Part shown: piece by piece, positions 15,183 through 30,854 of the stretch | Layout: each line of letters starts with the position of its first letter | Position numbering within the stretch: position 1 is the stretch's first letter | NCBI GenBank assembly: GCA_030428385.1 | Contig: JAUIDY010000030.1 | Coordinates: 1-53,211 of the forward strand | Direction of reading: 5' to 3' | DNA length: 53,211 bases | Source of the DNA: Rhodothermia bacterium | Lineage (GTDB): Bacteria > Bacteroidota > Rhodothermia > Rhodothermales > JAAAOL01 | Position numbers and translations under genes: made by a program | Notes under the pieces: generated by a model | The model's input: only the letters and a program-made list of their open reading frames with translations | The model's database searches: none | What the model was told of the DNA's origin: nothing

Positions 15183-15322
15183 GTTTTTACCGGTGAATAG
15201 TGCGTGGGCTTGTGAAGCAAAAAGTTTGATTCTACATTAAAAAACCCCTACATCTGAGCGTGTTTCTTGATAAGAAGCTAGGTTGCATGCTCAGCTTTTG
15301 TTGTCCCTCCGCCGTAAGGTAT

Positions 15323-18300
15323 ATGTGCTGTGATGTCCCACATAAGATCGGGTTCACTTCTTGGCGAAGGTATATTGCTTTGGCTGTACTTCTGGTTGCC
15401 GTTGTGCAGCCAAGTGCCGGTCAGCCCCGGTCAGTAGCAGAGGAAGGCATTCCTTTTGTCCATCATTTTACGCCGCAAAACTATCCGGCGGGTGGCCAAA
15501 CCTTTTCGTTGGCGCAGGATGGCGAAGGGGTGATGTGGATTGGCACAGGTGGCGGATTGTGGCGCTTCGACGGGGCTCACTGGACGCTAACCCCCGGCAC
15601 CGAGGGAGTGGTCTGCCGCAGCATTGTGCGGCTGGCCTCCAATCGCTTGCTGGTGACGTTGCATAACAGCTTCGGCATCGTTGCGCCTGGTGCGGATGGG
15701 TTGTATCGGTATGAGGCGTTGGATACCGCGCTTACGCCGTCGCAACGCCCGCCCACCCAGCTTCGCCGTATCCGCGTTGTCGGGGGGCATTTTTATGTAG
15801 TGGCTGATCCTGGGTTGTACGTCGGGCGTTTTGATACAAACAGGCCCGTGGAAGATGCTGCGCAGCAATTCCCCGAGGCGTTTGGCCTCTTACACCCCAC
15901 GATTATCGATGCCTTTGCCATGGGCGAGGTGCTGCTGGTTCACGACAGCGAGGCCGGGTTGATGCAAGTGGTGGGCGAGACGATGGTGTCATTCCCGGAT
16001 GGCTCCCGCTATGCCGAGGCCCGCATTGCGTTTGTAGAGCAAGTGAGCGCGGACGCGTGGCTTATTGGATTGCGTGATGGACGGTTGTTACGCTATGACG
16101 GCAGCCAACTATTGCCTTGGGCAACCAACGCGCACGACTTTCTGGCCACTCACATGGTGAACACGGCGGTAGTCCTGCATGATGGCAACATCGCCATTGG
16201 CACGGAGCGAGGAGGGCTGGTGGTGCTGGACCCGGAAGGTCAACTGCTCCACATTTGGGATGCACACACGGTTCTGCAAGATCCGTTTGTTGTCACGCTG
16301 TTGCAGGATCATCAAGGGGGGCTGTGGGTGGGGCAAAACCGGAACCTGAGTCGGCTGGCTTATGCCACGCCAGTGCGGCATTATGCCTATGACCGGGTGA
16401 TGCAAGGGGGCATCAGCGACCTCAGCCGCCATGAGGGGGCCTTGTACCTCACCTCCCCGATCGGACTGTTTCGACTGGATGCTTCCACAAAACCAGGGGA
16501 AGTGCCTTCGTTTACGGCGGTTCCGGGCCTGGAAGGGTATGGGGCGGAACTGGAAGCCGTAGATGCCACGCTGTTTGTAGGCTCGTTCGCCCAACTGTAT
16601 CGGGCATCGCTGCAGGCTGCCGTACCGCTGCCGGGTGTGTCCATCGATGACGGCGTGTATGACATCCAGCGCTCGCGCCGCGATTCAGGACGCGTGTATG
16701 TGACCGTGCCGTCGGGGCGGGTATTGTTGTATCGGCAAACGCAAGGACAATGGGAAGTGGAAAGTGAGTTGGGTGACCTGGGCGTGAGCCCATGGCGGCT
16801 TGCCGAAGACGCCAATGGAGGCTTGTGGGTGGGCACGGTGGCAAGCGGAGTGCTTTATTTCCCTGACCCCACGGACAGGGCCTCCAGGCAGCAGTTCGGC
16901 GCGGCGGAAGGGCTCGTTGACGGGCGCGTGTTTGTACGCCCGCTCGGCGATCGGCTGGTGTTTACAACCGCAGAAGGGCTTCGGCGTTTTGATGCGGAAA
17001 CAAACCGCTTTGTCCCCGAAACCGCATTTGGCGAGACGCTGGCTCGTGCGCAGGTCGACTTTTTTCAGGAAATGCCAGACCGGGAGGTGTGGGCCAAGGT
17101 GCCGCAGGTAGACGCCGCTGAATTCTGGCGGCTGCGGCCCCGGCCTGATGACACCTATGCGCGGGAGCCTGCCCCGATGCTGCATCGCCTGGGACCCTAT
17201 CTCGGAAGTACGTGGAATGTATATCCCGACCCACTCCTACCGGGCACGGTCTGGTTGGCCAGCGCCGAGGGACTCGTGGGGTATAACACCCAGGTCGCCT
17301 TGCCTGCCATCGACGAGGTTCCGACGTTGCTGTCACACCTAACGCTGAATGATTCCCTTCTCATGGGCCGCGAGGAGATGCAGGACTTCCGCGTACCTGC
17401 GGGGCGAAGCACGGTGCGGATTGCGTATGCTACCCCGTCCTATGAAGCGTTCGCGTCGAATGCGTATCAGGTGTGGCTGGACGGGCGCGACGCCGGATGG
17501 TCGGAATGGGGAACCTTGCCGTGGAAAGAATACACCGACCTTTCCCCCGGCGCGTATCGGCTCCGGGTGCGGAGCCGCAATGCCTATGGCGTGGTGGGGC
17601 CCGAGGCCGAGGTGGCCTTTCGCGTGATGCCGCCCTGGTATCGGACAGGATGGATGTATGCCGGGTATGGCCTGGGTATACTCGGCCTCGTGTTTGGACT
17701 CGCTTTTGTGCTCAACCAGCGGCGTACCCGCCAGCTACGCCAGCGCAACCGCGAGCTCGAAGATGCCGTTGCCGAGCGGACCACCGAACTCCAAGCTCAT
17801 CAGGATTTGCTGGCGCAGCAAAACGCCCAGCTTCGGCAACTCGATGAGGCGAAGAGTCAGTTTTTTGCCAATATCTCCCATGAGTTCCGCACCCCGCTTA
17901 CGCTTACCTTTGGTCCCATCGAGGACTTGTTGAAGGGGCGGTATGAGGTCGCCCCGGAAGCCCGCCCGCACCTCGAACGGGCACGGCGCAACGGGCATCG
18001 GCTGCTGCGGCTGATCAACCAACTGCTCGACCTCTCGCGCCTGGATGCCGGGGCCTTGCGGCTGAATGCCCAGCAGCATAACCTGGTGGCGTTTTTAGAA
18101 CAACGCGTTGGAGCGTTTGCCGACATGGCCGCGGTTCGGGGGCTTACCCTGCGCTACGTCCCGGATGTGCCCGAAATCGTTTATGTGTTCGACGCCGAGA
18201 AGCTGGAGACGGTGTTGCTCAATCTGCTCTCCAATGCCTTCAAATTCACACCGCGCGGCGGGTCGGTGGTGGTTTCAGCTCGGCAAGATGCACACGGCGA

Positions 18301-19456
18301 GGCGCTCATCACCGTGCGCGATACGGGTATTGGCATTCCCTCGGCGCACTTGCCCCATTTGTTCGACCGGTTTTATCAGGTCGATGGCTCGACCACGCGG
18401 AAACGCGATGGTTCGGGGATTGGGCTGGCGTTGTCCCGGCAACTCGTTGAATTACACGAAGGGAGCCTGACGGTGGCGAGTACCGTGGGCGAAGGCACCA
18501 CCTTTACCCTCACACTGGGCCTCGTGGCCCCGACCCCGTCATCACAAGGTGACGGCAGCGTCATTCCCGGCGCATCTGCCCCGGTACCTGCGCGTACGCC
18601 CGAGGTTGAGCCTTTTCCGGTGCCGGCCCCCGTGCTCGCTCAGGCTGCCCCTTCTGTGCCTCCTGCCGGTTCCGCCTCGGATGAGTCGGCTGTTATCCTG
18701 GTGGTGGAAGACAACACCGACATGCGTGCCTATATTCGGGCGCATCTGGAGGGGCGCTACCGGGTGGCCGAGGCCGTACATGGGAAGGCCGGGCTCGAAC
18801 AGGCTGTGGCGTTGGTGCCCGACCTGATTCTGAGCGATGTGATGATGCCACACATGGACGGACTAGACCTGCTGCAAGCCATCCGCGAGGACGAACGAAC
18901 CAGCCACATCCCCGTCATCTTGCTCACGGCACGGGCCGATGTAGAAAGCCGGATTGTGGGTCTCTCCACAGGGGCCGACGCCTACCTTGCCAAGCCCTTT
19001 CATGCGGAAGAACTGCAGGCCCACGTTACCGGCCTCATCACCCAGCGCCAGCGGCTGCGCGAACGATACAGCCAGCAGTCGCTTACCCTCACGGTACAAG
19101 AAGCCACCCTGCCCTCGATGGACGCAGCGTTTTTAGAGCGGTTGCAAGGGATCATCAACGAACACCTCGGCACGGTGACGTTTGGCGTGGACGCGCTGGC
19201 TGAAGAAATGGGCTTGAGCCGCCGTCAGTTGTTGCGCAAGGTGAAAGCCCTGCTGGACCAAACGCCCAACCAACTCATTCGGCAATTGCGGATGGAGCGG
19301 GCTGGTCAGCTGCTGGCTGCTGAGATTGCTACCGTAAAAGAGGTGGCCTATCAGGTAGGTTTCCGCAGCGATTCCCAGTTCCGCAAGGCCTTTCATGCGC
19401 ATTTTGGGATGTCTCCGACCGCATATATGACGGCCAATGAAGATAACAGCGGTTGA
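15323..19456 (+). CDS. Hybrid two-component system protein (propeller sensor, histidine kinase, receiver, AraC output)
   Basis: A one-protein signalling system of the Bacteroidota HTCS type, 1377 residues from ATG 15323. Order: signal peptide (YIALAVLLVAVVQPSAGQ); periplasmic propeller repeats to about 690 (MWIGTGGGLWRFDG, GLWVGTVASGVLYF); a Y_Y_Y domain near 690-770; a membrane helix near 772-798; HisKA with FFANISHEFRTPLT (His about 853); HATPase with LNLLSNAFKFTPRGG, VRDTGIGIP and GSGIGLALSR; a receiver with ILSDVMMPHMDG (Asp about 1172) and Lys in AKPF; and a C-terminal AraC domain (VDALAEEMGLSRRQLLRKVK, EVAYQVGFRSDSQFRKAF). It would sense an extracytoplasmic ligand and regulate genes directly. 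In relatives the ligand is often a glycan, but no glycan-utilisation genes are adjacent. GTG 15260 and ATG 15287 are alternative starts; 15323 has a better Shine-Dalgarno-like AAGG and signal peptide. Confidence 0.93.
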   Translation: MCCDVPHKIGFTSWRRYIALAVLLVAVVQPSAGQPRSVAEEGIPFVHHFTPQNYPAGGQTFSLAQDGEGVMWIGTGGGLWRFDGAHWTLTPGTEGVVCRSIVRLASNRLLVTLHNSFGIVAPGADGLYRYEALDTALTPSQRPPTQLRRIRVVGGHFYVVADPGLYVGRFDTNRPVEDAAQQFPEAFGLLHPTIIDAFAMGEVLLVHDSEAGLMQVVGETMVSFPDGSRYAEARIAFVEQVSADAWLIGLRDGRLLRYDGSQLLPWATNAHDFLATHMVNTAVVLHDGNIAIGTERGGLVVLDPEGQLLHIWDAHTVLQDPFVVTLLQDHQGGLWVGQNRNLSRLAYATPVRHYAYDRVMQGGISDLSRHEGALYLTSPIGLFRLDASTKPGEVPSFTAVPGLEGYGAELEAVDATLFVGSFAQLYRASLQAAVPLPGVSIDDGVYDIQRSRRDSGRVYVTVPSGRVLLYRQTQGQWEVESELGDLGVSPWRLAEDANGGLWVGTVASGVLYFPDPTDRASRQQFGAAEGLVDGRVFVRPLGDRLVFTTAEGLRRFDAETNRFVPETAFGETLARAQVDFFQEMPDREVWAKVPQVDAAEFWRLRPRPDDTYAREPAPMLHRLGPYLGSTWNVYPDPLLPGTVWLASAEGLVGYNTQVALPAIDEVPTLLSHLTLNDSLLMGREEMQDFRVPAGRSTVRIAYATPSYEAFASNAYQVWLDGRDAGWSEWGTLPWKEYTDLSPGAYRLRVRSRNAYGVVGPEAEVAFRVMPPWYRTGWMYAGYGLGILGLVFGLAFVLNQRRTRQLRQRNRELEDAVAERTTELQAHQDLLAQQNAQLRQLDEAKSQFFANISHEFRTPLTLTFGPIEDLLKGRYEVAPEARPHLERARRNGHRLLRLINQLLDLSRLDAGALRLNAQQHNLVAFLEQRVGAFADMAAVRGLTLRYVPDVPEIVYVFDAEKLETVLLNLLSNAFKFTPRGGSVVVSARQDAHGEALITVRDTGIGIPSAHLPHLFDRFYQVDGSTTRKRDGSGIGLALSRQLVELHEGSLTVASTVGEGTTFTLTLGLVAPTPSSQGDGSVIPGASAPVPARTPEVEPFPVPAPVLAQAAPSVPPAGSASDESAVILVVEDNTDMRAYIRAHLEGRYRVAEAVHGKAGLEQAVALVPDLILSDVMMPHMDGLDLLQAIREDERTSHIPVILLTARADVESRIVGLSTGADAYLAKPFHAEELQAHVTGLITQRQRLRERYSQQSLTLTVQEATLPSMDAAFLERLQGIINEHLGTVTFGVDALAEEMGLSRRQLLRKVKALLDQTPNQLIRQLRMERAGQLLAAEIATVKEVAYQVGFRSDSQFRKAFHAHFGMSPTAYMTANEDNSG

Positions 19457-19685: not shown

Positions 19686-20461
19686 GTGGATCGAGAACGC
19701 TTTGGTGAGAGAAGCAGGCGCAGCGCAGCCATGCTTCGAAGCGAAGGAAGGAGTGGGTAGAAGCGATTTGGCTTGGATGGGACAAGGCGTTTGGTCCTTT
19801 CCGCTGTGAAAGGACAGAAAACCAACAAGTCCGCAGGTTGATTACAACCTTCTTAACGAGCACCGCACTTCTGGAAGGCCCCGCTGAGGCAACGGCTAGT
19901 GCCAAAGGAGATGTTTGTTCTCTCAGAGACGAAAGAACGAAAGTCCTGCCGCCTCCGAAACGCGCGAACCCCGATCCTACCCCACCTAATCCCGTACCCA
20001 ACGGGCAACTAGCATCATGCTATTCCTCATAGCCTCGGTGATGCCCATTGGCTAAACGCACCGGGGCTCTACCCAACGCGCCTAGGCCACGGAGGCGGCA
20101 TCGGCGCTCGGCACCATCGTCCCCGCAACCGAGTAGGCTCCTCATCTCGGGGCAGCGCCTTGAAACACACGCATCCATCGCAGCACAAGGCGCAGGTACG
20201 GTGTGGAGTCACGCTAGCAAAGAACGGGAGCGAGAGACATCATTTTCTGCGCGGCAGAGCCATGCTACGAGGAAACAGGTCGACGAAAGAGTGCGGAATG
20301 TGCCTTTTTCCCGTTCATGTCCCAAAAACGGCGGAAAATGTCCCCAAACCGCCGCCCATGTCCCTAAAGCGGCGCACCGTGTCCCATGTGCCTTGCCTCG
20401 ACCCTGTAGGTTAAGAAGCGTTCGCTTACATGCTATCCCCCATCCGTTACTTCGTACCCTT
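19686..20461. other. Long stretch without a convincing gene; possible dispersed repeat and motif array
   Basis: Open frames exist on both strands (for example 19657-20001 minus and 20048-20629 plus), but their products are low-complexity, Ser/Arg/Pro-rich and lack domains or signal peptides, so I do not call them. The first half (about 19700-20030) has the look of a decayed or dispersed non-coding repeat. The second half carries regularly spaced ATGTCCC motifs at 20298-20385. The frame from 20462 to 20629 (55 codons) could be a gene remnant but has no recognisable features. Confidence 0.4.
20298..20385 (+). repeat. ATGTCCC direct-repeat array with 20-21 bp spacing
   Basis: ATGTCCC occurs at 20317, 20338 and 20358, GTGTCCC at 20379 and a weaker ATGTGCC at 20298. 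The steps are 19, 21, 20 and 21 bp, close to two helical turns. Between copies the sequence also repeats, roughly AAA then a CGGCG or CCGCCG block. It lies about 290 bp upstream of the PAS-protein gene. It may be a cooperative protein-binding array or a degenerate tandem repeat. Confidence 0.6.
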
Positions 20462-20675
20462 ATGAACACGCCATCGCCGCCAACCGAATCCTCCTCCCCA
20501 GCGCCTCGGGTGCCCCTGACCGAGACCATACGCCATGCGCTGGATGCGTTGTGCGCCGAATTGGGAACCCCCCTTGTGCTTTCCTGGCCGCCTCCGCCCC
20601 CGTCAAGGGGAACAGGCATGCTATCCTGAAAGCATTTGGGCACGGTTTGTCTCCCATGTTTAACGCCCCTTTTTG

Positions 20676-21107
20676 ATGACGTATCCCGCTCCCTACACAA
20701 CTCCTTCTCCCCAGCCCCATACCATCCACCAAGAAGCCATTCCGGCTTTTTGTCTTTACCTGACTACGGATTCGCAACTTCGCATTTTACAGGCGTGTCA
20801 GCAGACGGCCCGGCTGACGGGGTACGACTCGCCCGATTTACAGGGGCTGCATCTGGCCCAACTGTTTGCCGAAGCGGACCGTCCTGATCTATTAAAGCTG
20901 GGGACCCTGGCCACCCTGGGCCTCTTTCAGCAGGCTAGGCTGGCAGTAGGCACCGGGACAGGATGCTACCTCAAGCTACATGTTGTGGCACGCTCCTTCG
21001 GGTGGAATGGGGTACAAGGTATCCGGTGGACGTTGCAATCAGTCCACGATGACAAGATCAACTCCGAAGAGTCAAGGTTTGTAGTGCCCGAAGGCAGCAT
21101 GCGCTGA
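20676..21107 (+). CDS. Small single-domain PAS-like protein
   Basis: 143 residues. A 35-residue Pro/Thr-rich start is followed by a segment with the rhythm of a PAS domain: LYLTTDSQLRILQACQQT, then ARLTGYDSPDLQGLHLAQLF, EADRPDLL, and late strands KLHVVARSF and GIRWTLQSV. In kinases this arrangement (TGYDSPDLQG matching the usual GYS-EEL-G) forms a ligand- or redox-sensing fold; here nothing else is attached, so it may be a free sensor or a partner of another regulator. ATG 20676 is used rather than TTG 20673. A strong terminator 38 bp after the stop separates it from the sigma-factor operon. Confidence 0.6.
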   Translation: MTYPAPYTTPSPQPHTIHQEAIPAFCLYLTTDSQLRILQACQQTARLTGYDSPDLQGLHLAQLFAEADRPDLLKLGTLATLGLFQQARLAVGTGTGCYLKLHVVARSFGWNGVQGIRWTLQSVHDDKINSEESRFVVPEGSMR

Positions 21108-21194: not shown

Positions 21195-21431
21195 CCGTAT
21201 CGATGAGTCTTCGTCGGCTCCAGCGTCCATTTCAAGGAGCCTCTTGCGGTAAGCGCTTGCATAAGTCTTGGCTTTCTTACTATATCCTAATCTTCCTGCC
21301 GCTTACGCAGGCCTGTACATTCAGGGTTTTGCCCCGTTCTAGGTAGCGGCCTTTATTTCCGCGGTGAGGAAGCCGTCCTGATAGCCCCGGCACGGTGCAT
21401 TTTGTTTGGGTATAGTCACCACGAGGCGTTG
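21195..21431 (+). promoter_or_regulatory. Leader/promoter region of the sigma-factor operon
   Basis: 237 bp between the terminator and the sigma-factor ATG. It must hold the operon promoter, but no convincing TTG/TAnnTTTG pair could be singled out. A 47-codon frame from ATG 21203 contains one hydrophobic stretch (WLSYYILIFLPLTQAC), which might be a small lipoprotein-like peptide; the support is too weak for a gene call. Confidence 0.35.
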
Positions 21432-22229
21432 ATGCATCTCCGCCGCCACGCGTATTCCTGGTTAAACGACGAAGCCCTGCTTGCGCGGTTGTTAAAAAAC
21501 GGTCCTACCGCTGAGGCGGCATGGCATGTATTCCTCGAACGCTACTCGAACCTATTCCTGAAGGTGATCTGGCAGTTTGAGACCGACCAGGATGTGGCGA
21601 TGGAGCGGTATCTGTACGTGTGTTCGAAGCTGGCTGCCAACGACCGTGCGATACTCAAGCGGTTTCGGCCAACGTATGGGAACGCCACACCGAAGTTTTC
21701 CACATGGCTGTATGCCGTGGTGCGAAATCTCTGTGTGGATGCGTACCGGGCTGCACATGGACGCCGTCGGTATCCGCGTGCCATTGCCCGACTGTCTCCA
21801 TTCGATCAGCGGGTCTTTGCCTTGTATTTCTGGCAGGGGTATACGGTAGAAGAAATCGAGCACACCTTGGGTGAGAAGCCTGTGGGGGGTACATCGGTAA
21901 GGGAGGCACTGGACCGCGTGGACGCGCACCTTGTAAATCCAGGTCTTCAGCACCGGCAATCACCTGTGCTGGTACCGTATGAAGAAGGCAAAGGCATGGC
22001 AGAATCTGCACCCCCATCAGGTGTGGAGGACGCGGCCCTGATAGAGCAATGGTTGGCGGTGTTGCCTGCGGAAGAGCGGCTGGTGGTGCAACTCCGGTTC
22101 TGGGAAGACATGACGGGTGCTGAGATTGCCAAGGTGCTGGCCATCGACCCTCCCCAGCGGGTCTACACCATCCTGAAACGGGCCTTAAAACAGCTTCGCC
22201 AGCAGGCTCCCCGCGACGTGGTCCCATAA
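21432..22229 (+). CDS. ECF-like sigma factor with two region-4-like segments
   Basis: A 265-residue sigma-70 family protein. Residues about 26-113 are region 2, with AWHVFLERYSNLFLKVIW and the core-binding/-10 segment KFSTWLYAVVRNLCVDAYRAAHGRRR. Unusually, two stretches then look like region 4: 119-166 (RLSPFDQRVFALYFWQGYTVEEIEHTLG) and 203-257 (WLAVLPAEERLVVQLRFWEDMTGAEIAKVLAI, then RVYTILKRALKQLRQQ). Between them is a linker of about 35 residues. Ordinary ECF factors are 170-200 residues with one region 4. ATG 21432 is preferred to TTG 21402. The gene leads an operon with a zinc-finger anti-sigma gene 56 bp downstream and the CHAT-protease gene after it, so its activity is probably held by that anti-sigma factor. 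Confidence 0.85.
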   Translation: MHLRRHAYSWLNDEALLARLLKNGPTAEAAWHVFLERYSNLFLKVIWQFETDQDVAMERYLYVCSKLAANDRAILKRFRPTYGNATPKFSTWLYAVVRNLCVDAYRAAHGRRRYPRAIARLSPFDQRVFALYFWQGYTVEEIEHTLGEKPVGGTSVREALDRVDAHLVNPGLQHRQSPVLVPYEEGKGMAESAPPSGVEDAALIEQWLAVLPAEERLVVQLRFWEDMTGAEIAKVLAIDPPQRVYTILKRALKQLRQQAPRDVVP

Positions 22230-22285: not shown

Positions 22286-22939
22286 ATGCACCTGACAGAA
22301 GCAGAGGTTGTCCTGTTCCTTGACGGGAAGGTTGCAGCCCAAGAGCGGCAGCACATCCATGCCCACCTAGCGACGTGTGCATCATGTAGAGCGTTGCTGG
22401 GGGCGGTACACCGGATGCCGGAAGCCCTTGCCCAGCATGATCCCCCGCCAGTGGATGCCGTGACGCTGCGTCGGGCGCAGCAACTGGTCCAGGCGTCCCC
22501 CATGCGGCGCAGGCAGATTTTTGTATTTCCGCGTCCGGTGTTCGGGGTGTTGGCACTGGTGCTGGCAGTGGGCATCGGTTGGGGGGCCTATGAAAGGCAA
22601 CAGCCCGTGCCTGAAGCCGAGCGGTTGCGTAGCACGGAACGCCCGGCTGCCCTGACGATTATAGAACCACTTCCGCAGGCAACCATCGAGACCACGGTGC
22701 CCGTTTTTCGGTGGCAGGCATGGCCGCAGGCATCGGGCTATTGGTTGAAGGTTCATCATGAGGATGGCACCGAACGGTGGCGCGTGCACACCTCAGCAAC
22801 GAGCCTGGCCGTGCCCGATTCCCTGGCCCTGGAGATGGGCGAGCGGTATCTTTGGCATATTGAAGCCACGCTGCCCAATGGTAGCACGGTAAGTTCGGCG
22901 CTGCATTCCTTTATCCTTTCCGACCCTCACGGGGAGTAA
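22286..22939 (+). CDS. Zinc-finger transmembrane anti-sigma factor with an outside sensor domain
   Basis: 217 residues. The N-terminus is a zf-HC2-type anti-sigma domain: LTEAEVVLFLDGKVAAQE, then His27-x3-Cys31-x2-Cys34. A linker with Arg74-Arg76 precedes a single membrane helix at about 85-102 (FGVLALVLAVGIGWGAY). The outside part (115-217) resembles an Fn3/Ig-type beta-sandwich: VPVFRWQAWPQASGYWLKV and GERYLWHIEATLPNGSTVSS. The zinc-finger domain is expected to bind and silence the sigma factor encoded just upstream. The outside domain may take the activating signal or be the target of proteolysis. The stop is only 9 bp from the GTG of the CHAT gene, so the two are almost certainly cotranscribed. 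Confidence 0.82.
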   Translation: MHLTEAEVVLFLDGKVAAQERQHIHAHLATCASCRALLGAVHRMPEALAQHDPPPVDAVTLRRAQQLVQASPMRRRQIFVFPRPVFGVLALVLAVGIGWGAYERQQPVPEAERLRSTERPAALTIIEPLPQATIETTVPVFRWQAWPQASGYWLKVHHEDGTERWRVHTSATSLAVPDSLALEMGERYLWHIEATLPNGSTVSSALHSFILSDPHGE

Positions 22940-22948
22940 ACACCAGCC

Positions 22949-25780
22949 GTGAAACGCCTCCCGCACACTCACACAAGGAGGCTGCTGTTGGCACTGACAG
23001 GTGTTGGCCTTCTGGTGGGTATCGGGTGGTGGTTGCGGCCTTCCTCGTTAACAGAGGCCCAGCGGATCCATTCGGCGCAGCAATACCAGGCCCAGGGTCG
23101 CCTTGCCGAAGCCAGCGGCGTACTTGAACCCTTGATCGCCGATGCGGAGGCGTCACCCGAAGTCCGCCTCCTGTACGGCGAGACACTGCTGGCCCGTGGC
23201 GAACTGCACCTGGCACAACAGGTTTTCTCCGGGTTGCTAGATGCCGATACATCGGTGGTTGCGAGAGCCCGGTATCGTCTTGCCCTGACCCATTTCTACC
23301 AGGGCCACCTCAACACTGCACGGGAAGAGGCGCACGCCTTGGAACAGTGGGGTCGTCTTCATGATGACCCCAATGCTGTGGGGCAGGCCCTGCATGTCCG
23401 GGGGCGTGTGGCCTTCAACGAGGCGCAGTATGACTCTGCCGAGGTGTGGCAGCGCCAAAGCCTCACGCGGGCGCGCGAGGCCAGCGACCGCGCCCTCGAA
23501 GCCGATGCGTTGCGCCAACTGGGCGTGCTGGCCTGGTACCGCGCCCAGCCCGACACGGCACGCACAACCTATTATGAACCCGCCCTAACCCTCTATCGCG
23601 ACCTCGGGGATTATGTGGGTGAAGCCACCACGTTAAGCAACATCGGGCTGCTCCATAGCGAGTGGGGCGACTGGGAGACGCATATCCGTTACCAGCTTCA
23701 GGCGTTTGGCATCCGCAAGCGCATCGGCGACCAGATCGGGCTGGCCGACAGCTATTACTTTTTGTCGAACCTGCCCCACTGGAGCGCCCGGCAGCGGCGG
23801 ACGTTCGCGTATACGTATATGCAAAAAAGCTACGACCTGAGTATACAGACCGGGTATGCCTGGGGGGCGGAGGTGGCAGCCACAGCCTTGCGCAACGCGA
23901 TGGCAGAGGATCCGGCCCTGGTAGAGCAGGTTGCCTACTGGCATGGCGCGGTGTCGCAACGCTCCGTGGAAGGGCGTATTCTGGCGGCTTCGTTTGAAGC
24001 CCATGCGCAAGCGGTGGCAGGCAATCTGGAGGCATCGGCCCAGCAATTTGGTCGCCTCGTGGCGGTGATCGATTCGTTGGGGTATGACATCGGGAAGGCG
24101 GGCTTTTTGGCATGGCAGGGACGCACGCTGTTGGAGATTGGGGCGTTTGAAGCAGCGGAGCAGGCCTTACTTCGGGCGCAGGCACTCACGGCGGGCGCCC
24201 GCGGGCATCGGCAGCAGGTATTTGCCCATCTTGGCTTGGCTCGGCTGTACCTGAAGACCGAACGCCCCGAACAGGCCGAAGCGGTCTTACAGCCCCTGGT
24301 GGCCTATTACGATTCGCTGTACGTGCAGAAAATCGGGGCGGAGAATGCGACGGTGGCGTTTGAGAATGCGGCAGCCTCGGTGCACCGGGTCAGGGCGCAG
24401 CTCTATAGCGTGCTGATGGAGGCCTTGGCCCGCACCAACCCTGCACGGGCGATGGCCGTTATCGAGCGGGAACGGGTGCTGCCGTTCTGGGGAGAGCGGG
24501 AAACGATGACAGCACCCGCCGATGCCGTTGAGGTGCCCGATGCCTTTACGGACCTGCTTGATTTGTTGACCCTGTATGAGACCGACCCCGCCCGTTTCGA
24601 CGAGATAGGGCCGCTGCTGGAGGCGTTGCAGCAAACCTCGGAGGCGCTGCTGGAACAACAAGACCTGCTGACGGCATCTTCGGCATCTGCCATATTGCCA
24701 CCCGTCCCAGCGGTGGCGACGTTGCAGGCCAGCCTGGAGCCCGGCGAGGTGTTGCTGGAATATTTTGTGGGCGTGGAGACGCCTCCGCACGCGCCTTCGC
24801 CGGTGTGGGCCTTCGTCGCCCGGCGTGATACGGTGGCGTTGGTGGCGTTGCCCACGACGGAGCCAGAAGTGAACACGCTGGTGGAGGTGTACCGCAAGGC
24901 GTTGTTGTTGGGAGAAACCATGCCCAACGACAAGCTGTGGCACGGCCCCGCGCATTCGCTTTATCAGAAGTTGCTGGCACCATTGGAGGAAGACGGGCTC
25001 CTTCCGGCCAAGGCCCCGGTGGTCATCGCGCCACACCGCATGTTGCACCTGTTGCCCTTTCACGCTCTGCCTGTGGAGCCGCCGGGGCAAACGTCTTCCT
25101 TTTTGCTGGAACAGCATCGCGTGTCCTACACGCCCTCGGCGGCATCGTTGGTGAGGGCACGCCAGGCCGCGCCCCGGCCGCTGCGCTCCTTGCTGGCGGC
25201 GGCTCCGCAGGAAGCAACGTTGCGCTACACCCAGGCCGAACTCGATGCCATTCCCGGCGACCTTTTTGCCACCGCCACGTTTTTGCACGGCCCCCAAGCC
25301 ACCGCCGAGGCCGTCCGCGATGCCTCCGCACAGGTTGATGCAGTGCATCTGGCTGCCCACGCGAAAATGAACCTGCGCCATCCCCTGTACTCCGAGGTCC
25401 AGTATGCCAACCGGCCCCTGGCTTTGCATGAGATCCTGCGGCAGCGGCTTCAGGCCCGCCTGGTGGTGCTGAGTGCGTGTGAAAGCGGGCGCAGTGTGGG
25501 TGCGTTGGGCCGGGTTCCTTCGGGCGAAGACTTGGTCAGCTTTCCCCGTGCCTTTATGGAGGCGGGGGCGTCGACGGTGGTGGCATCGCTGTGGGTAGTG
25601 GAAGATGAAGCCACCGCTTCGCTCATGGCGCAGTTTTACCACGCCCTATCCGATGCCCCGTCGCTGGCCCATGCCTTGCAGCATGCGCAGCGCCATTTCT
25701 TAAGCGAAGCCCGCCGTACCCGGCACAAGGTGCACCCTTTCTATTGGGCAGGGTTTTATTTAATCGGCGACAACCGCTGA
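22949..25780 (+). CDS. Membrane-anchored TPR-CHAT caspase-like protease
   Basis: 943 residues from GTG. The basic N-terminus and one membrane helix (LLLALTGVGLLVGIGWWL, about 12-29) suggest the rest faces the periplasm. Residues 35-500 are TPR-type helical repeats (ALHVRGRVAFNEAQYDSAEV, ATTLSNIGLLHSEWGDWETH). The C-terminal CHAT domain (about 600-943) has VVIAPHRMLHLLPFHALPVE, the catalytic His804 in VHLAAHAKM, Cys844 in VVLSACESG, and the late motifs FMEAGASTVVASLWVVED and HPFYWAGFYLIGDNR. CHAT proteins are clan CD cysteine peptidases related to separase and caspases. Nine bases separate it from the anti-sigma gene, so the anti-sigma factor or the exported beta-helix protein are the obvious candidate substrates; this is inference. 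Confidence 0.9.
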   Translation: MKRLPHTHTRRLLLALTGVGLLVGIGWWLRPSSLTEAQRIHSAQQYQAQGRLAEASGVLEPLIADAEASPEVRLLYGETLLARGELHLAQQVFSGLLDADTSVVARARYRLALTHFYQGHLNTAREEAHALEQWGRLHDDPNAVGQALHVRGRVAFNEAQYDSAEVWQRQSLTRAREASDRALEADALRQLGVLAWYRAQPDTARTTYYEPALTLYRDLGDYVGEATTLSNIGLLHSEWGDWETHIRYQLQAFGIRKRIGDQIGLADSYYFLSNLPHWSARQRRTFAYTYMQKSYDLSIQTGYAWGAEVAATALRNAMAEDPALVEQVAYWHGAVSQRSVEGRILAASFEAHAQAVAGNLEASAQQFGRLVAVIDSLGYDIGKAGFLAWQGRTLLEIGAFEAAEQALLRAQALTAGARGHRQQVFAHLGLARLYLKTERPEQAEAVLQPLVAYYDSLYVQKIGAENATVAFENAAASVHRVRAQLYSVLMEALARTNPARAMAVIERERVLPFWGERETMTAPADAVEVPDAFTDLLDLLTLYETDPARFDEIGPLLEALQQTSEALLEQQDLLTASSASAILPPVPAVATLQASLEPGEVLLEYFVGVETPPHAPSPVWAFVARRDTVALVALPTTEPEVNTLVEVYRKALLLGETMPNDKLWHGPAHSLYQKLLAPLEEDGLLPAKAPVVIAPHRMLHLLPFHALPVEPPGQTSSFLLEQHRVSYTPSAASLVRARQAAPRPLRSLLAAAPQEATLRYTQAELDAIPGDLFATATFLHGPQATAEAVRDASAQVDAVHLAAHAKMNLRHPLYSEVQYANRPLALHEILRQRLQARLVVLSACESGRSVGALGRVPSGEDLVSFPRAFMEAGASTVVASLWVVEDEATASLMAQFYHALSDAPSLAHALQHAQRHFLSEARRTRHKVHPFYWAGFYLIGDNR

Positions 25781-25910
25781 GTACAAGGCCTCCTGTTATC
25801 AGGGAAGCTGACTATAGCAAATTTTCAGGTCGGTGCAAATCGAGGCGTCCTGTGTCCGTGTCATACCCGTGTGGTATCTGTGTGTTGTTCACGAACTCAG
25901 ACCAGATCGC

Positions 25911-28900
25911 ATGAAAAAAATTGTCTTCCCCCAACAATTTGTTTCCGCAACCTACCTGTGGGCCACCATGGGTAGCATTCTGCTCTTCGCTGCCTTCTCC
26001 ATTGAGGAAAAGCCTTCCCCCGCGTTCATCCCCTCCCACGGGGCAACGTTTGTGGTTAACATTCCCGGCAACCTGCCTGATGCGGATCTGAACGACAACA
26101 TTTGTAACGTAGGTGGAGACACGGGCGGATGTACTTTGCGGGCTGCCATCGAGCAGGCCAATGCGACTCCAGGGGCCGACATGATTACGTTTAGTCTGGG
26201 TGGGGGCATCCCAATCCTCGGTACCGGAGACCTTCCTGAGGTGACGGAGACGGTTACTATTGACGGCGCAACCGGAGGAGCGACACAAGTCCAACTATCC
26301 GGCCTTGTGTTTGGAGTCCCCGCAGGCTCAGGAGACACCGGACTTGTTTTCACAGATGACAACAATATCGTACGTAATCTGATTATTGTTGGCTATTCTA
26401 GCCCCGGCATCATCCTGCGTAACGGTGAGGGAAGCCTCATTGAGAACACCTGGTTGGGACTGGACCAGACAGGGGTTGGGCTTCCCAATTTTGAAGGCTT
26501 GCTCATCGACAATTCCAGCAACAATACCATTGGGGGAGCCGAGGCCAGTAAACGGAATATTATTTCGGGCAACCTACGCAGCGGCATCCTTATCCAAGGT
26601 GCTCAGGCAACGATGAACAAGGTGCTAGGCAACTACATCGGCACGGATGCAAGCGGAAACGGCGTTCCAAACAAACGTATGGGCAGTACAGCCGCCAACG
26701 CAGGAGACGGTATCCTGATTGATAATGCGCCGGGTAATATTATTGGTGGTACAGAGCCAGGGATGGGCAATGTTATCTCCGGCAATGGGGATGCTGTTTT
26801 TAGTGGTAATGGTATCAAAATCCAAGGTCCCGAAGCCACCCAGAACACGGTGCAGGGTAACTACATTGGCACCAACATGGACGGCGATGCAGCGCTAGGG
26901 AATGCAGGTTCTGGCATTTTCGTGGATAACGCACCCAACAACACCATCGGCGGAACGGAAGAAGGGGCGGGTAACCTCATTTCGAGCAACACGGGCCAGG
27001 GCCTTTTTATAGCCGGCCCCGAAGCCACGATGAACACGGTGCAGGGGAACCACATTGGCACCAACAAGGATGGCGACGCAGCCCTGGGTAATTTATTCTC
27101 CGGGGTTGTGATTAGCGGTGCCCCTAACAATACCATCGGCGGAACGGAAGAAGGAGCGGGGAACCTCATTTCGGACAACACCAATGGCATTGTATTCACC
27201 GGTACCGAGGCGACAATGAACAGGGTGGAGGGCAATTACATCGGGACCAACAAAGACGGCAATGCTCCGCTAGGAAATAAAAAGATAGGTGTTCTGATCG
27301 AAGATGCCTCCGAAAATACGATCGGGGGCACCGTGGAGGGGGCCCGCAACATCATCTCCGGCAATCGCGAACAGGGCCTCGTCATTTCAGGGGCTCAATC
27401 TACCCTGAACCAGGTAGCGGGAAACTATATCGGGACCAACAAGGAGGGCAACGGGCGGCTTGAGAATTACGGCTCTGGAATTATGATCGACAATGCGCCC
27501 AACAATACCATTGGTGGAACGGCCGCCGAAGCCCGTAACATCATCTCCGGCAATTATTTTGATGAATTAAATGACCCGCCGGATCAGGGCAATGGCATCT
27601 TCATCACGGGTGTCCAGGCAACGATGAACACGGTGCAGGGGAACCACATTGGCACCAACAAGGATGGCGATGCCCCTCTGGGAAACGATGGCTCCGGCAT
27701 TCTGATCGACAATGCCCCTGCAAACCACATTGGTGGTACCGAACCAGGAATGCGCAACCTGATCTCCGGTAATGGTAATGCCGTCTCGAACGTGGCGAAT
27801 GGTATCACCATCCGTGGTGCCGAGGCGACGATGAACAAGGTGGAAGGTAACTACATTGGCACCGACAGGGACGGACTCGTTAAAATTGCCAATTATCACT
27901 CCGGCGTTTGGATCGAAAATGCACCCAATAACATGATCGGTGGTACTACCGCCGAGGCCCGGAATATCATTTCCGGAAACTTCTTTGAGGGTGAAACCAA
28001 CCAGGGGAATGGTGTCACCATTATGGGTGTCCAAGCCACGATGAATCAGGTCTTGGGCAATTACATTGGCACCAACAAGGATGGTACAGCGGCACTCGGA
28101 AATGGAGAATCTGGGGTGTTAATCAACAATGCGTTCAACAACACCATTGGTGGTGTCGAGGAGGGAGCCCGCAATATTATCTCGGGTAATGTTAAGCATG
28201 GGATCGTCATTTCAGGGACACTGTCCACGGTTAACCAGGTATTCGGCAATTACATCGGTGTTAGCAAGGATGGCAATGTGGCGCTACAGAATGAAGGCTC
28301 CGGGGTTGTAATCGAGAATGCCTCCAATAACACCATCGGCGGGGCCACGGCGACCCAACGCAATATCATCTCTGGCAATGCAGCCGATGGCATCATCATC
28401 CAAGGTGCCCAGGCCGCCATAAATATCATCGAGGGAAACTATATCGGTACGACGGCCACAGGGACAGGCATGTTGGGCAATGGCAGTCATGGTGTATTCA
28501 TCAGCGAGGCTCCCCTGAATAGGATTGGTGGCAGCGGTGCGCTTAATATTATCTCGGGAAATGAGCAGCATGGCGTTTACATCATTGGTGCCAACGAAAA
28601 CATCGTTGGAGGAAACCACATCGGCACCGATGTGAACGGTATGGCGGCGTTTCCCAATGGAGGAAACGGGGTCTTATTGATAGATGCCTCAAACACCTTG
28701 GTGGGGTATGACGACGTTGGGCAGCAAGGAGAGCGAAACCTTATCTCTGGAAACGAACAGGATGGTATCAAGATCGAGCCCCTTTTTGCTGTACCCGCAG
28801 GTAACCTCATCGCCGACAACTTTATTGGAACGACAGGAGATGGCGAAGCGGCGCTCGGCAATAGCAGACATGGCATCTTCATCGAGAGCGCCACAACCAC

Positions 28901-30854
28901 CGTTGTGAAAGAGAATGTGGTTTCCAGCAATGCAGGCACGGGTGTTGTGATCAGCAACGGGGCGGAGCATATCATCTACAACAATCGCATCGGCATTGCC
29001 AAATTCAGCAACATGCCCCTGGGAAATCAGCAGCATGGCGTTGCGCTGGTGAACCCCGACCCTAGCAGCCCCACCACCAACAATACCGTTGAAAAAAACA
29101 CCATTGCCTACAACAACGCCGATGGCGTCTCTATCATCGATATGACGTCGGTGCGGAATGTGATTCGCGAAAACAGCATCACGTCGAACGGGGGCCTCGG
29201 CATCAACCTTCGGGCGGATGGGGTCACAGATAATGATAATGGCGACAGCGACACGGGACCTAACACGCTACAAAACTTCCCCATTCTCACGGCTGCTTCG
29301 GGAAACGACCTTACCATCGAAGGTGCGCTGAATAGCACCCCCAATACACCCGTTCGCATCGAGTTTTTTGCAAACAACTCCTGCGATCCCACCGGGCATG
29401 GGGAGGGGCAGGTTTTTATCGGAAACAGGGATGTCACAACCGATAATAGCGGAGACGCGAACATCTCGGCTACCCTTGCCGGGGTGAGTGTGCCGAATGG
29501 GTATTTCATTACGGCGACGGCGACAAGTGCAGATGAACAAACCACGAACGGTGTTGGCAATACCAGTGAGTTTTCACCTTGTGTACCAATAACCGGGGCA
29601 ACGGGGTGTAGCCTTGTGGTGACCAACACGAATAACGACGGCGCTGGTTCGCTACGCGACGCCATCCTCTGCGCCAACGTGACGCCCAACATCGGCCAAC
29701 CCGACAGCATCACCTTCGATATTCCCCAAACCGGCGTGCCGCTCATCGCGCCCACTTCGGCGCTGCCCACCGTGATCGACCCCGTTATCATCGATGCCAC
29801 TACTCAGCCGGACGCCAACATGGTGCGCGTAGACGGCAACGACGCTGGCAACGACGCCCACGGGCTTCACATCACGGAAGGGGAGAGCACCGTCAAAGGA
29901 CTCGCCCTCACCCGCTTCGCGGGGCATGGCATCTTGCTCGAAACAGAAGGCGAAAACACCATCACGCAGTCTTACCTCGGCACTGATGCCAGCCAAACGC
30001 CCAATCTCGGCAACCTCGGCGATGGCATTCACATCCGTGGCGGCTCCAATGCCAACATTATTGGCGGCACCGAGGCCGAAGCAGGCAACGTTATCTATGG
30101 CAATGCCGGAGCCGGAGTCGCCGTGGCGAACGACGCCATTGGCAATACCATTCGGGGCAACCACATTGCAGCCAATGGCGGGCCGGGCATCGATCTGGCT
30201 GCCGATGGCATCTCCGCCAACGACAGCGGCGACAGCGACACTGGGGCGAACATGCTGCAAAATTTTCCTGTGCTCACGGCGGCCCAAACAGGTAGCCTCC
30301 ACGTCGAGGGCACGCTCGAAAGCACGCCCGACATGGTGTTCGACCTCGACTTTTATGTCAGCGCGGCATGTGGTTCGGCAGCAGAGCGAGTTGGGGAAAC
30401 GTATGTGGGTACGGAAACCTTCACGACCGATGCGCAGGGACAGGCGGTGTTTGCCGTGACTTTCGCCGACGTGATCTTCACCGAAGGCTTTGTGAGTGCC
30501 ACCGCCACTGATCCGGCAGGCAACACCAGTGAACTGAGCGCTTGCCTGCAGATTGATACCAACGTTGCCGTGGATGCACCGGACCGTCCAACAACGGCGC
30601 GGCTGCTTGCTTCGTATCCCAACCCGTTCGCCACCGAGGCGACCATTGCATTCGAATTATCCCACGCGGAGCACGTCACGGTGCGGGTCTTCAACACGCT
30701 GGGGCAGGAGGTAGCCGAACTGGTCGATGGCGTACGCACAGCGGGGCGTCATGCGGTGACATGGCAGGCGGCGGGTATGCCTTCCGGTTTGTATTACTAC
30801 CAGCTAGAAGCCGCCGATTTCCATGCTGTTCGCCAGATGGTGCGGGTCAAGTAG
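25911..30854 (+). CDS. Giant T9SS-secreted beta-helix surface protein
   Basis: 1647 residues from ATG 25911 (MKKIVFPQQF), chosen over 25833 because it gives a signal peptide (LWATMGSILLFAAFS). Near residue 75 there is a CSLREA-like opening, CTLRAAIEQANATPGADMITF, and a second near 1245 (GAGSLRDAILCANVTP). Between them at least 13 units of 55-75 residues repeat the theme NTIGGTEEGARNIISGN, a hydrophobic strand, then GNYIGTNKDGDAALGN. This is a right-handed parallel beta-helix. The last 85 residues are a T9SS sorting domain (ASYPNPFATEATIAFEL, FNTLGQEVAELVDG, GLYYYQLEA). It is expected to sit on or leave the cell surface. It starts 130 bp after the CHAT gene and may be controlled by the sigma factor. 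Its ligand is unknown. Confidence 0.92.
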   Translation: MKKIVFPQQFVSATYLWATMGSILLFAAFSIEEKPSPAFIPSHGATFVVNIPGNLPDADLNDNICNVGGDTGGCTLRAAIEQANATPGADMITFSLGGGIPILGTGDLPEVTETVTIDGATGGATQVQLSGLVFGVPAGSGDTGLVFTDDNNIVRNLIIVGYSSPGIILRNGEGSLIENTWLGLDQTGVGLPNFEGLLIDNSSNNTIGGAEASKRNIISGNLRSGILIQGAQATMNKVLGNYIGTDASGNGVPNKRMGSTAANAGDGILIDNAPGNIIGGTEPGMGNVISGNGDAVFSGNGIKIQGPEATQNTVQGNYIGTNMDGDAALGNAGSGIFVDNAPNNTIGGTEEGAGNLISSNTGQGLFIAGPEATMNTVQGNHIGTNKDGDAALGNLFSGVVISGAPNNTIGGTEEGAGNLISDNTNGIVFTGTEATMNRVEGNYIGTNKDGNAPLGNKKIGVLIEDASENTIGGTVEGARNIISGNREQGLVISGAQSTLNQVAGNYIGTNKEGNGRLENYGSGIMIDNAPNNTIGGTAAEARNIISGNYFDELNDPPDQGNGIFITGVQATMNTVQGNHIGTNKDGDAPLGNDGSGILIDNAPANHIGGTEPGMRNLISGNGNAVSNVANGITIRGAEATMNKVEGNYIGTDRDGLVKIANYHSGVWIENAPNNMIGGTTAEARNIISGNFFEGETNQGNGVTIMGVQATMNQVLGNYIGTNKDGTAALGNGESGVLINNAFNNTIGGVEEGARNIISGNVKHGIVISGTLSTVNQVFGNYIGVSKDGNVALQNEGSGVVIENASNNTIGGATATQRNIISGNAADGIIIQGAQAAINIIEGNYIGTTATGTGMLGNGSHGVFISEAPLNRIGGSGALNIISGNEQHGVYIIGANENIVGGNHIGTDVNGMAAFPNGGNGVLLIDASNTLVGYDDVGQQGERNLISGNEQDGIKIEPLFAVPAGNLIADNFIGTTGDGEAALGNSRHGIFIESATTTVVKENVVSSNAGTGVVISNGAEHIIYNNRIGIAKFSNMPLGNQQHGVALVNPDPSSPTTNNTVEKNTIAYNNADGVSIIDMTSVRNVIRENSITSNGGLGINLRADGVTDNDNGDSDTGPNTLQNFPILTAASGNDLTIEGALNSTPNTPVRIEFFANNSCDPTGHGEGQVFIGNRDVTTDNSGDANISATLAGVSVPNGYFITATATSADEQTTNGVGNTSEFSPCVPITGATGCSLVVTNTNNDGAGSLRDAILCANVTPNIGQPDSITFDIPQTGVPLIAPTSALPTVIDPVIIDATTQPDANMVRVDGNDAGNDAHGLHITEGESTVKGLALTRFAGHGILLETEGENTITQSYLGTDASQTPNLGNLGDGIHIRGGSNANIIGGTEAEAGNVIYGNAGAGVAVANDAIGNTIRGNHIAANGGPGIDLAADGISANDSGDSDTGANMLQNFPVLTAAQTGSLHVEGTLESTPDMVFDLDFYVSAACGSAAERVGETYVGTETFTTDAQGQAVFAVTFADVIFTEGFVSATATDPAGNTSELSACLQIDTNVAVDAPDRPTTARLLASYPNPFATEATIAFELSHAEHVTVRVFNTLGQEVAELVDGVRTAGRHAVTWQAAGMPSGLYYYQLEAADFHAVRQMVRVK
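26520..29035 (+). repeat. Coding tandem repeats of the beta-helix gene
   Basis: About 13 units of roughly 160-230 bp, each encoding an IGG-xxx-ARNIISGN strand set and a GNYIGTNKDG turn. Some units are very close: a 50-base run at 27027-27076 recurs exactly at 27621-27670. Spacing is uneven, so units have been gained, lost and trimmed. Confidence 0.85.

Follow-up and report, generated by a model that had tools for sequence, protein, structure and literature searches.

AraC, a soluble sugar-binding regulator with two sites, reads the araI1 and araI2 half-sites, a direct repeat about 21 bp apart whose promoter-proximal member overlaps the -35 element. Each araI site consists of two boxes read by two HTH motifs. 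In class II activation by AraC, the activator site stands at the -35 position.

For HTCS regulators, the motifs of Bacteroides thetaiotaomicron have been predicted, in the accessible sections of the study, as pairs of directly repeated sites with a mean spacing of 21 bp, and these pairs were read as dimers on one helix face (Ravcheev et al. 2013, PMC3878776). The same sections report that motif similarity follows protein similarity and call HTCS a Bacteroidetes feature (PMC3878776). In the available parts of two other papers, HTCS are stated to bind DNA as dimers (PMC6874557), and binding assays made use of two HTCS promoters (PMC11253607).

A 53,211-nucleotide stretch of DNA from a Rhodothermia bacterium, hereafter the window, carries an array of phased direct repeats between an HTCS gene and the genes downstream, that is, upstream of genes adjoining an HTCS gene. 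As judged by sequence comparison, this array is very probably a cis-acting, activating operator of the HTCS whose gene directly precedes it.

The array and its setting in the window

Table 1. Features of the HTCS locus in the window (positions in nucleotides).
Feature	Position	Strand	Basis or remark
HTCS gene: Reg_prop, weak Y_Y_Y, HisKA, HATPase_c, receiver, AraC-type HTH_18	15260..19456	+	Pfam; start codon as in the ORF list
AraC-type DNA-binding domain of the HTCS	19106..19453	+	HTH1 helix LSRRQLLRKV, HTH2 helix RSDSQFRKAFHAHF
Weak motif ATGTGCC	20298..20316	+	Second block absent; probably not a site
Site 1: ATGTCCC + AAAAACGGCG block	20317..20334	+	
Site 2: ATGTCCC + CAAACCGCCG block	20338..20355	+	
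Site 3: ATGTCCC + TAAAGCGGCG block	20358..20375	+	
Site 4: GTGTCCC, degenerate second block	20379..20396	+	At the expected -35 position
TAGGTT, putative -10-like hexamer	20407..20412	+	27 bp past the TG of site 4
Small candidate ORF of 55 aa, first after the putative promoter	20462..20629	+	Divergent member of a small-protein family
PAS-like gene	20676..21107	+	PAS_9 E=6.4e-4, below the Pfam cut-off
Sigma-70 family factor, possibly also in the controlled group	21402..22229	+	Pfam
zf-HC2 putative anti-sigma factor	22286..22939	+	Pfam
TPR-CHAT protein	22949..25780	+	Pfam
Large secreted beta-helix protein with Por_Secre_tail	25833..30854	+	End of the window's cluster

The HTCS of the window combines, within a single chain, a propeller sensor, a histidine kinase, a receiver and an AraC HTH. 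Reg_prop, HisKA, HATPase_c, Response_reg and HTH_18 score above the Pfam cut-offs and Y_Y_Y below its own. The closest solved chain to the AraC-type domain is 12aw_A, described as a 'hybrid two-component system protein' (E=2.4e-14). The array lies 844 bp past the HTCS stop codon, a greater distance than at the other loci presented below.

The initial annotation had described five ATGTCCC-like motifs stepping by 19-21 bp, with a partly conserved spacer, in a stretch upstream of PAS and sigma genes. The steps were measured as 19, 21, 20 and 21 bp, exactly within that range, leaving 21-20-21 between sites 1 and 4. Four of the five motifs are borne out. The weak first one is probably not a site, and it was left out because its second block is missing and four sites are the norm among sister arrays. 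Conservation of the spacer holds after sites 1, 2 and 3, which are followed by a NAAANCGSCG block, and fails after the weak motif and after site 4, where this block is absent. As for the setting, the PAS and sigma genes had been named, and the HTCS regulator directly upstream, the two-block nature of the site and the promoter element had been missed.

Within the window, TGTCCC alone among 6-mers recurs four or more times at intervals of 19-22 bp, and no 6-mer with this behaviour appeared in any of 40 dinucleotide-shuffled versions of the sequence. A blind four-copy score computed on the 1,100 bp located 3' of the HTCS gene reached 23, at steps 21-20-21; no mononucleotide shuffle attained this value (0/300, best shuffle 16). 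The ATGTCCC word itself is not enriched in the window, with 6 occurrences observed for 7.55 expected, so the unusual feature is the phasing and not the word. All three copies of the exact unit TGTCCCNAAANCGSCG in the whole genome lie within the window array. A genome-wide count of units with at most two mismatches revealed no enrichment that would indicate a wider regulon of the window HTCS (140 versus 121 in the reversed control). A coding origin as a 7-residue repeat, which the initial annotation had put forward as a refutation of its reading, was rejected, as steps of 21, 20 and 21 bp are not all multiples of three and shift the reading frame.

Arrays beside sister regulators and look-alike repeats

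A genome-wide search for TGTCCC pairs, similar to the one proposed in the initial annotation for ATGTCCC, turned up a second array, on contig C171 (locus L051), with a different second block, ATGGTACA. The gene order there matches that of the window, with an HTCS gene followed by the array and then by a PAS-like gene, and the HTCS architecture is Pfam-confirmed in both; these two are the only genes of the set for which the full Pfam domain architecture was established. The HTCS-type set comprises 16 genome matches to the AraC-type domain of the window with at least 41% identity, 8 weaker AraC-type matches being excluded; one member, L107, is represented by only the C-terminal 183 residues on its contig.

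Arrays of two to four direct repeats with a spacing of about 21 bp lie between the HTCS stop codon and the next gene for 12 of the 16 genes (the window, L051, L105, L106, L107, L109, L110, L112, L113, L114, L115 and L117), always following the HTCS gene in the same orientation. Four units are found in ten of them, three at L117, and two with a doubtful third at L113. Steps of 21-20-21 are shared by the window, L107, L109, L110, L114 and L115, and the other four-site arrays display 22-20-21 (L105), 21-21-21 (L106), 21-22-20 (L112) and 21-19-21 (L051). The boxes differ between loci, with, for example, TGTCCC at the window, L051 and L114, TGGCAC at L105, L107 and L115, TGAGAC at L106, TGGCAG at L110 and TGCTC at L117. 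No array was found downstream of L104, L108, L111 and L116, of which L104 and L108 carry HTH1 helices identical to those of array-bearing genes.

Nine of the 12 arrays pass the blind four-copy score, eight at 0/100 shuffles and the window at 0/300, the latter being scored in a 1,100-bp region since a 900-bp region cut the array off; those of L109, L112 and L113 fail it and were found by eye or by motif. Upstream of the same HTCS genes, one region in 15 passes (L117; Fisher p=0.004 versus downstream), the upstream region of L109 standing at 3/100 shuffles. A score of at least 18 is reached by 7 of 16 HTCS downstream regions versus 5 of 368 control windows taken from other loci of the same genome (Fisher p=3.5e-8), these controls covering both strands, partly overlapping and hence not being independent. 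One control stretch (L031, G000:C141:91901-94313) has a four-copy score of 36 and probably represents a strong tandem repeat with a period near 21 bp. A unit-pattern scan of the genome contigs gave 10 loci, none of which matched HTCS, IstA or IstB by tblastn. Searches of plasmids yielded nothing informative. The earlier proposal of phased protein-binding sites sharing one face of the helix is supported by comparison, as the geometry recurs with different sequences beside sister regulators.

TGTCCC-type repeats also occur in another context. An IS21-family element in the relative G015 (IstB Pfam E=2.4e-69) carries them with a period of about 22 bp at both ends, and for this reason a leftover IS21 end, whose phased direct repeats bind transposase, was the explanation considered first. 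IstB has no match on contigs C212 and C171, however, and tblastn with IstA and IstB found none in the window or L051. Moreover, transposon ends are not expected after HTCS genes, in one orientation and ahead of a promoter hexamer at fixed distance. The IS21 origin, with no istA/istB beside the repeats, is largely refuted and highly unlikely.

Several look-alikes were noted in relatives. L053 and L066 (G015:C10), like L063, belong to the IS21 element, whose TGTCCC-type end repeats of about 22 bp resemble the operator array. The arrays L054, L056, L058-L062 and L065 had neither an HTCS nor an IS21 match in the sequence examined; among them, L065 and L062, from two related genomes (G024, G034), consist of TGTCCCGCTTCGCTCCGGCCA repeats spaced by 21 bp. 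L057 is a 6-bp repeat, and L068 overlaps L065.

Putative promoter geometry and the genes that follow

A TAnnnT hexamer stands 27 or 28 bp past the TG of the last site in 7 of the 12 arrays of this genome, compared with a mean of 0.10 of 12 at other offsets. When the pattern is relaxed to YAnnnT, the count rises to 9 of 12 for a mean of 0.38. L110 has TACGCC at offset 28, and L113 and L117 lack a hexamer at 27/28. With TAnnnT taken as the -10 element, the -35 position would fall on the first box of the last site. In the last unit of the ten four-site arrays, the first box is kept (50 of 59 consensus positions) and the second mostly lost (43 of 97), a loss expected if RNA polymerase shares that stretch. 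A scan with the sigma-70 consensus found no promoter at the window array.

These observations also bear on whether the array is a plain, decaying tandem repeat without function. Tandem Repeats Finder does list it, with a 21-bp period and 72% matches, and the initial annotation had itself named a degenerate tandem repeat at random places as an outcome that would overturn its reading. Such a repeat would not be expected to keep its geometry beside sister genes despite different sequences, nor a fixed distance to the hexamer. Recurrence beside HTCS genes refutes the plain repeat, which is accordingly extremely unlikely.

Many HTCS arrays are followed first by a gene for a small protein, some 55-75 residues long, whose core resembles ARLEIDALWAMLG. 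Family members are found in the window and at L105, L106, L107, L109, L111, L112, L114 and L119. A search with the nine-sequence alignment, in which the window ORF was included and matches itself by construction, revealed two copies outside the alignment, one after L106 (C86, E=7.9e-6) and one on C167 (E=2e-7), the latter with no HTCS seen nearby. Large secreted beta-helix proteins of the CSLRAAIEEAN type are encoded repeatedly 3' of HTCS arrays, at several of the L105-L117 loci. In the window, the TPR-CHAT (caspase-like) gene sits directly 3' of the sigma/anti-sigma pair. The PAS-like gene has three paralogues (G000:C237:12984, C171:24386 and C152:4671), and an HTCS array lies upstream of two of these four genes, those of the window and C171, and of neither of the other two.

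Apparent helix-box pairing and comparison with known operators

The sites appear to covary with the DNA-binding domain of their regulator, with weak significance. In Mantel tests on 13 arrays delimited by hand, the similarity of HTH1 correlates with that of box 1 (r=0.41, p=0.015), and the same holds for HTH2 and box 2 (r=0.25, p=0.029; raw p values, four tests), whereas the crossed pairs, HTH1 with box 2 and HTH2 with box 1, are non-significant (r=0.05 and 0.06). Among array-bearing genes, the helix SRRQLL goes with TGTCYC in 3 of 3 cases and SRRQLF with TGGCAC in 3 of 3, each helix type also being represented by one array-less gene.

A held-out locus, L119 (genome G006), agrees with this apparent covariation. 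Found through protein similarity alone, it encodes the domain that, outside the genome of the window, comes closest to the window's DNA-binding domain, and it shares the HTH2 core SQFRKAF with the window. The DNA downstream of the gene carries sites almost matching those of the window, namely TGGCCGAAAAACGGCG, TGTCTGGATTGCGGCG and TGTCCGAAAACCGGCG, spaced 21 and 20 bp, followed by a weak fourth unit and by TATGCT 27-28 bp past the inferred fourth site. Domain searches in the order and the phylum yielded 12 HTCS loci outside the genome of the window, and no convincing array adjoins the gene at the 11 others. L121 and L122 reached 0/100 shuffles, but they resemble GC-rich coding and simple-repeat DNA. 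The arrangement is thus not universal.

A different regulator, for example the sigma factor or the PAS-like protein encoded to the right, might bind the array instead, both genes being within 2 kb and a PAS-like gene also following the C171 array. This is very unlikely, as the HTCS is the gene common to all 12 loci, the two remaining PAS-like paralogues have no array upstream, and site sequence changes in step with the recognition helices of the HTCS. The sigma gene probably just lies downstream of the array and is not the reason for its presence. Association with HTCS genes, the fixed hexamer, L119 and the covariation of HTH and boxes together designate the array as the probable operator of the HTCS itself.

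As an HTCS operator, the array may work as follows. Each unit of about 18 bp would constitute a single AraC-type site whose two boxes, separated by roughly one helical turn, would be read by HTH1 (TGTCCC) and by HTH2 (the NAAANCGSCG block). With the four units spaced 21-20-21 bp, four DNA-binding domains would come to lie on one face, plausibly as two dimers, and the promoter-proximal unit, about 27 bp before the TAnnnT element, would replace the -35 box. Stimulation of the sensor would lead to phosphorylation of the receiver and to filling of the array by the DNA-binding domains. The filled array would then recruit RNA polymerase for rightward transcription of the small ORF and the PAS-like gene, in an operon that possibly takes in the remaining genes of the cluster as far as the one for the secreted beta-helix protein.

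A broader reading is put forward tentatively, as somewhat short of probable. The HTCS of this lineage would form a four-site, two-dimer assembly that takes the place of the -35 element and keeps a constant distance to the -10. Their two HTH motifs would constitute a modular code from which the operator is predictable (SRRQLL with TGTCCC, SRRQLF with TGGCAC, SQFRKAF with AAANCGGCG). Each regulator would drive a private operon, usually opening with an undescribed small protein family and secreting a beta-helix protein. The dozen-odd sister regulators, each with its own probable four-site operator at a constant distance from the putative promoter element, represent a natural experiment on DNA choice by AraC-type proteins.

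Among described systems, the ends of IS21-family elements such as that of G015 likewise carry multiple TGTCCC-like direct repeats, at about 22 bp, but they flank istA/istB, neither of which is present at the window array. Compared with AraC, whose araI sites have a similar layout, the window has a membrane-bound hybrid kinase with four sites. Predictions of HTCS operators have so far come mainly from Bacteroides and describe pairs of sites. The accessible sections of the B. thetaiotaomicron study contain no four-site HTCS operator and no fixed promoter distance (PMC3878776), and searches of the open-licence literature found no paper on four-site HTCS operators. Paired 21-bp HTCS repeats were therefore already predicted, whereas the four-site, promoter-locked form appears to be new.

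As far as those sections describe them, the predicted B. thetaiotaomicron operators resemble the present arrays in belonging to AraC-type HTCS, in their direct repeats of about 21 bp on one face, in motifs that grow more alike as the regulators do, and in their location near the regulator gene, and they differ in having two sites and in standing upstream of SusC/SusD polysaccharide genes (PMC3878776). Here, four sites are usual (10 of 12 arrays, the window included, where a Bacteroides-type operator has two), spaced 21-20-21 and locked 27-28 bp before TAnnnT, which would make the array a variant of the HTCS operator. Unlike in B. thetaiotaomicron, the genes after the arrays are a small ORF together with secreted beta-helix or signalling genes, which suggests that HTCS control reaches these functions, beyond polysaccharide uptake.
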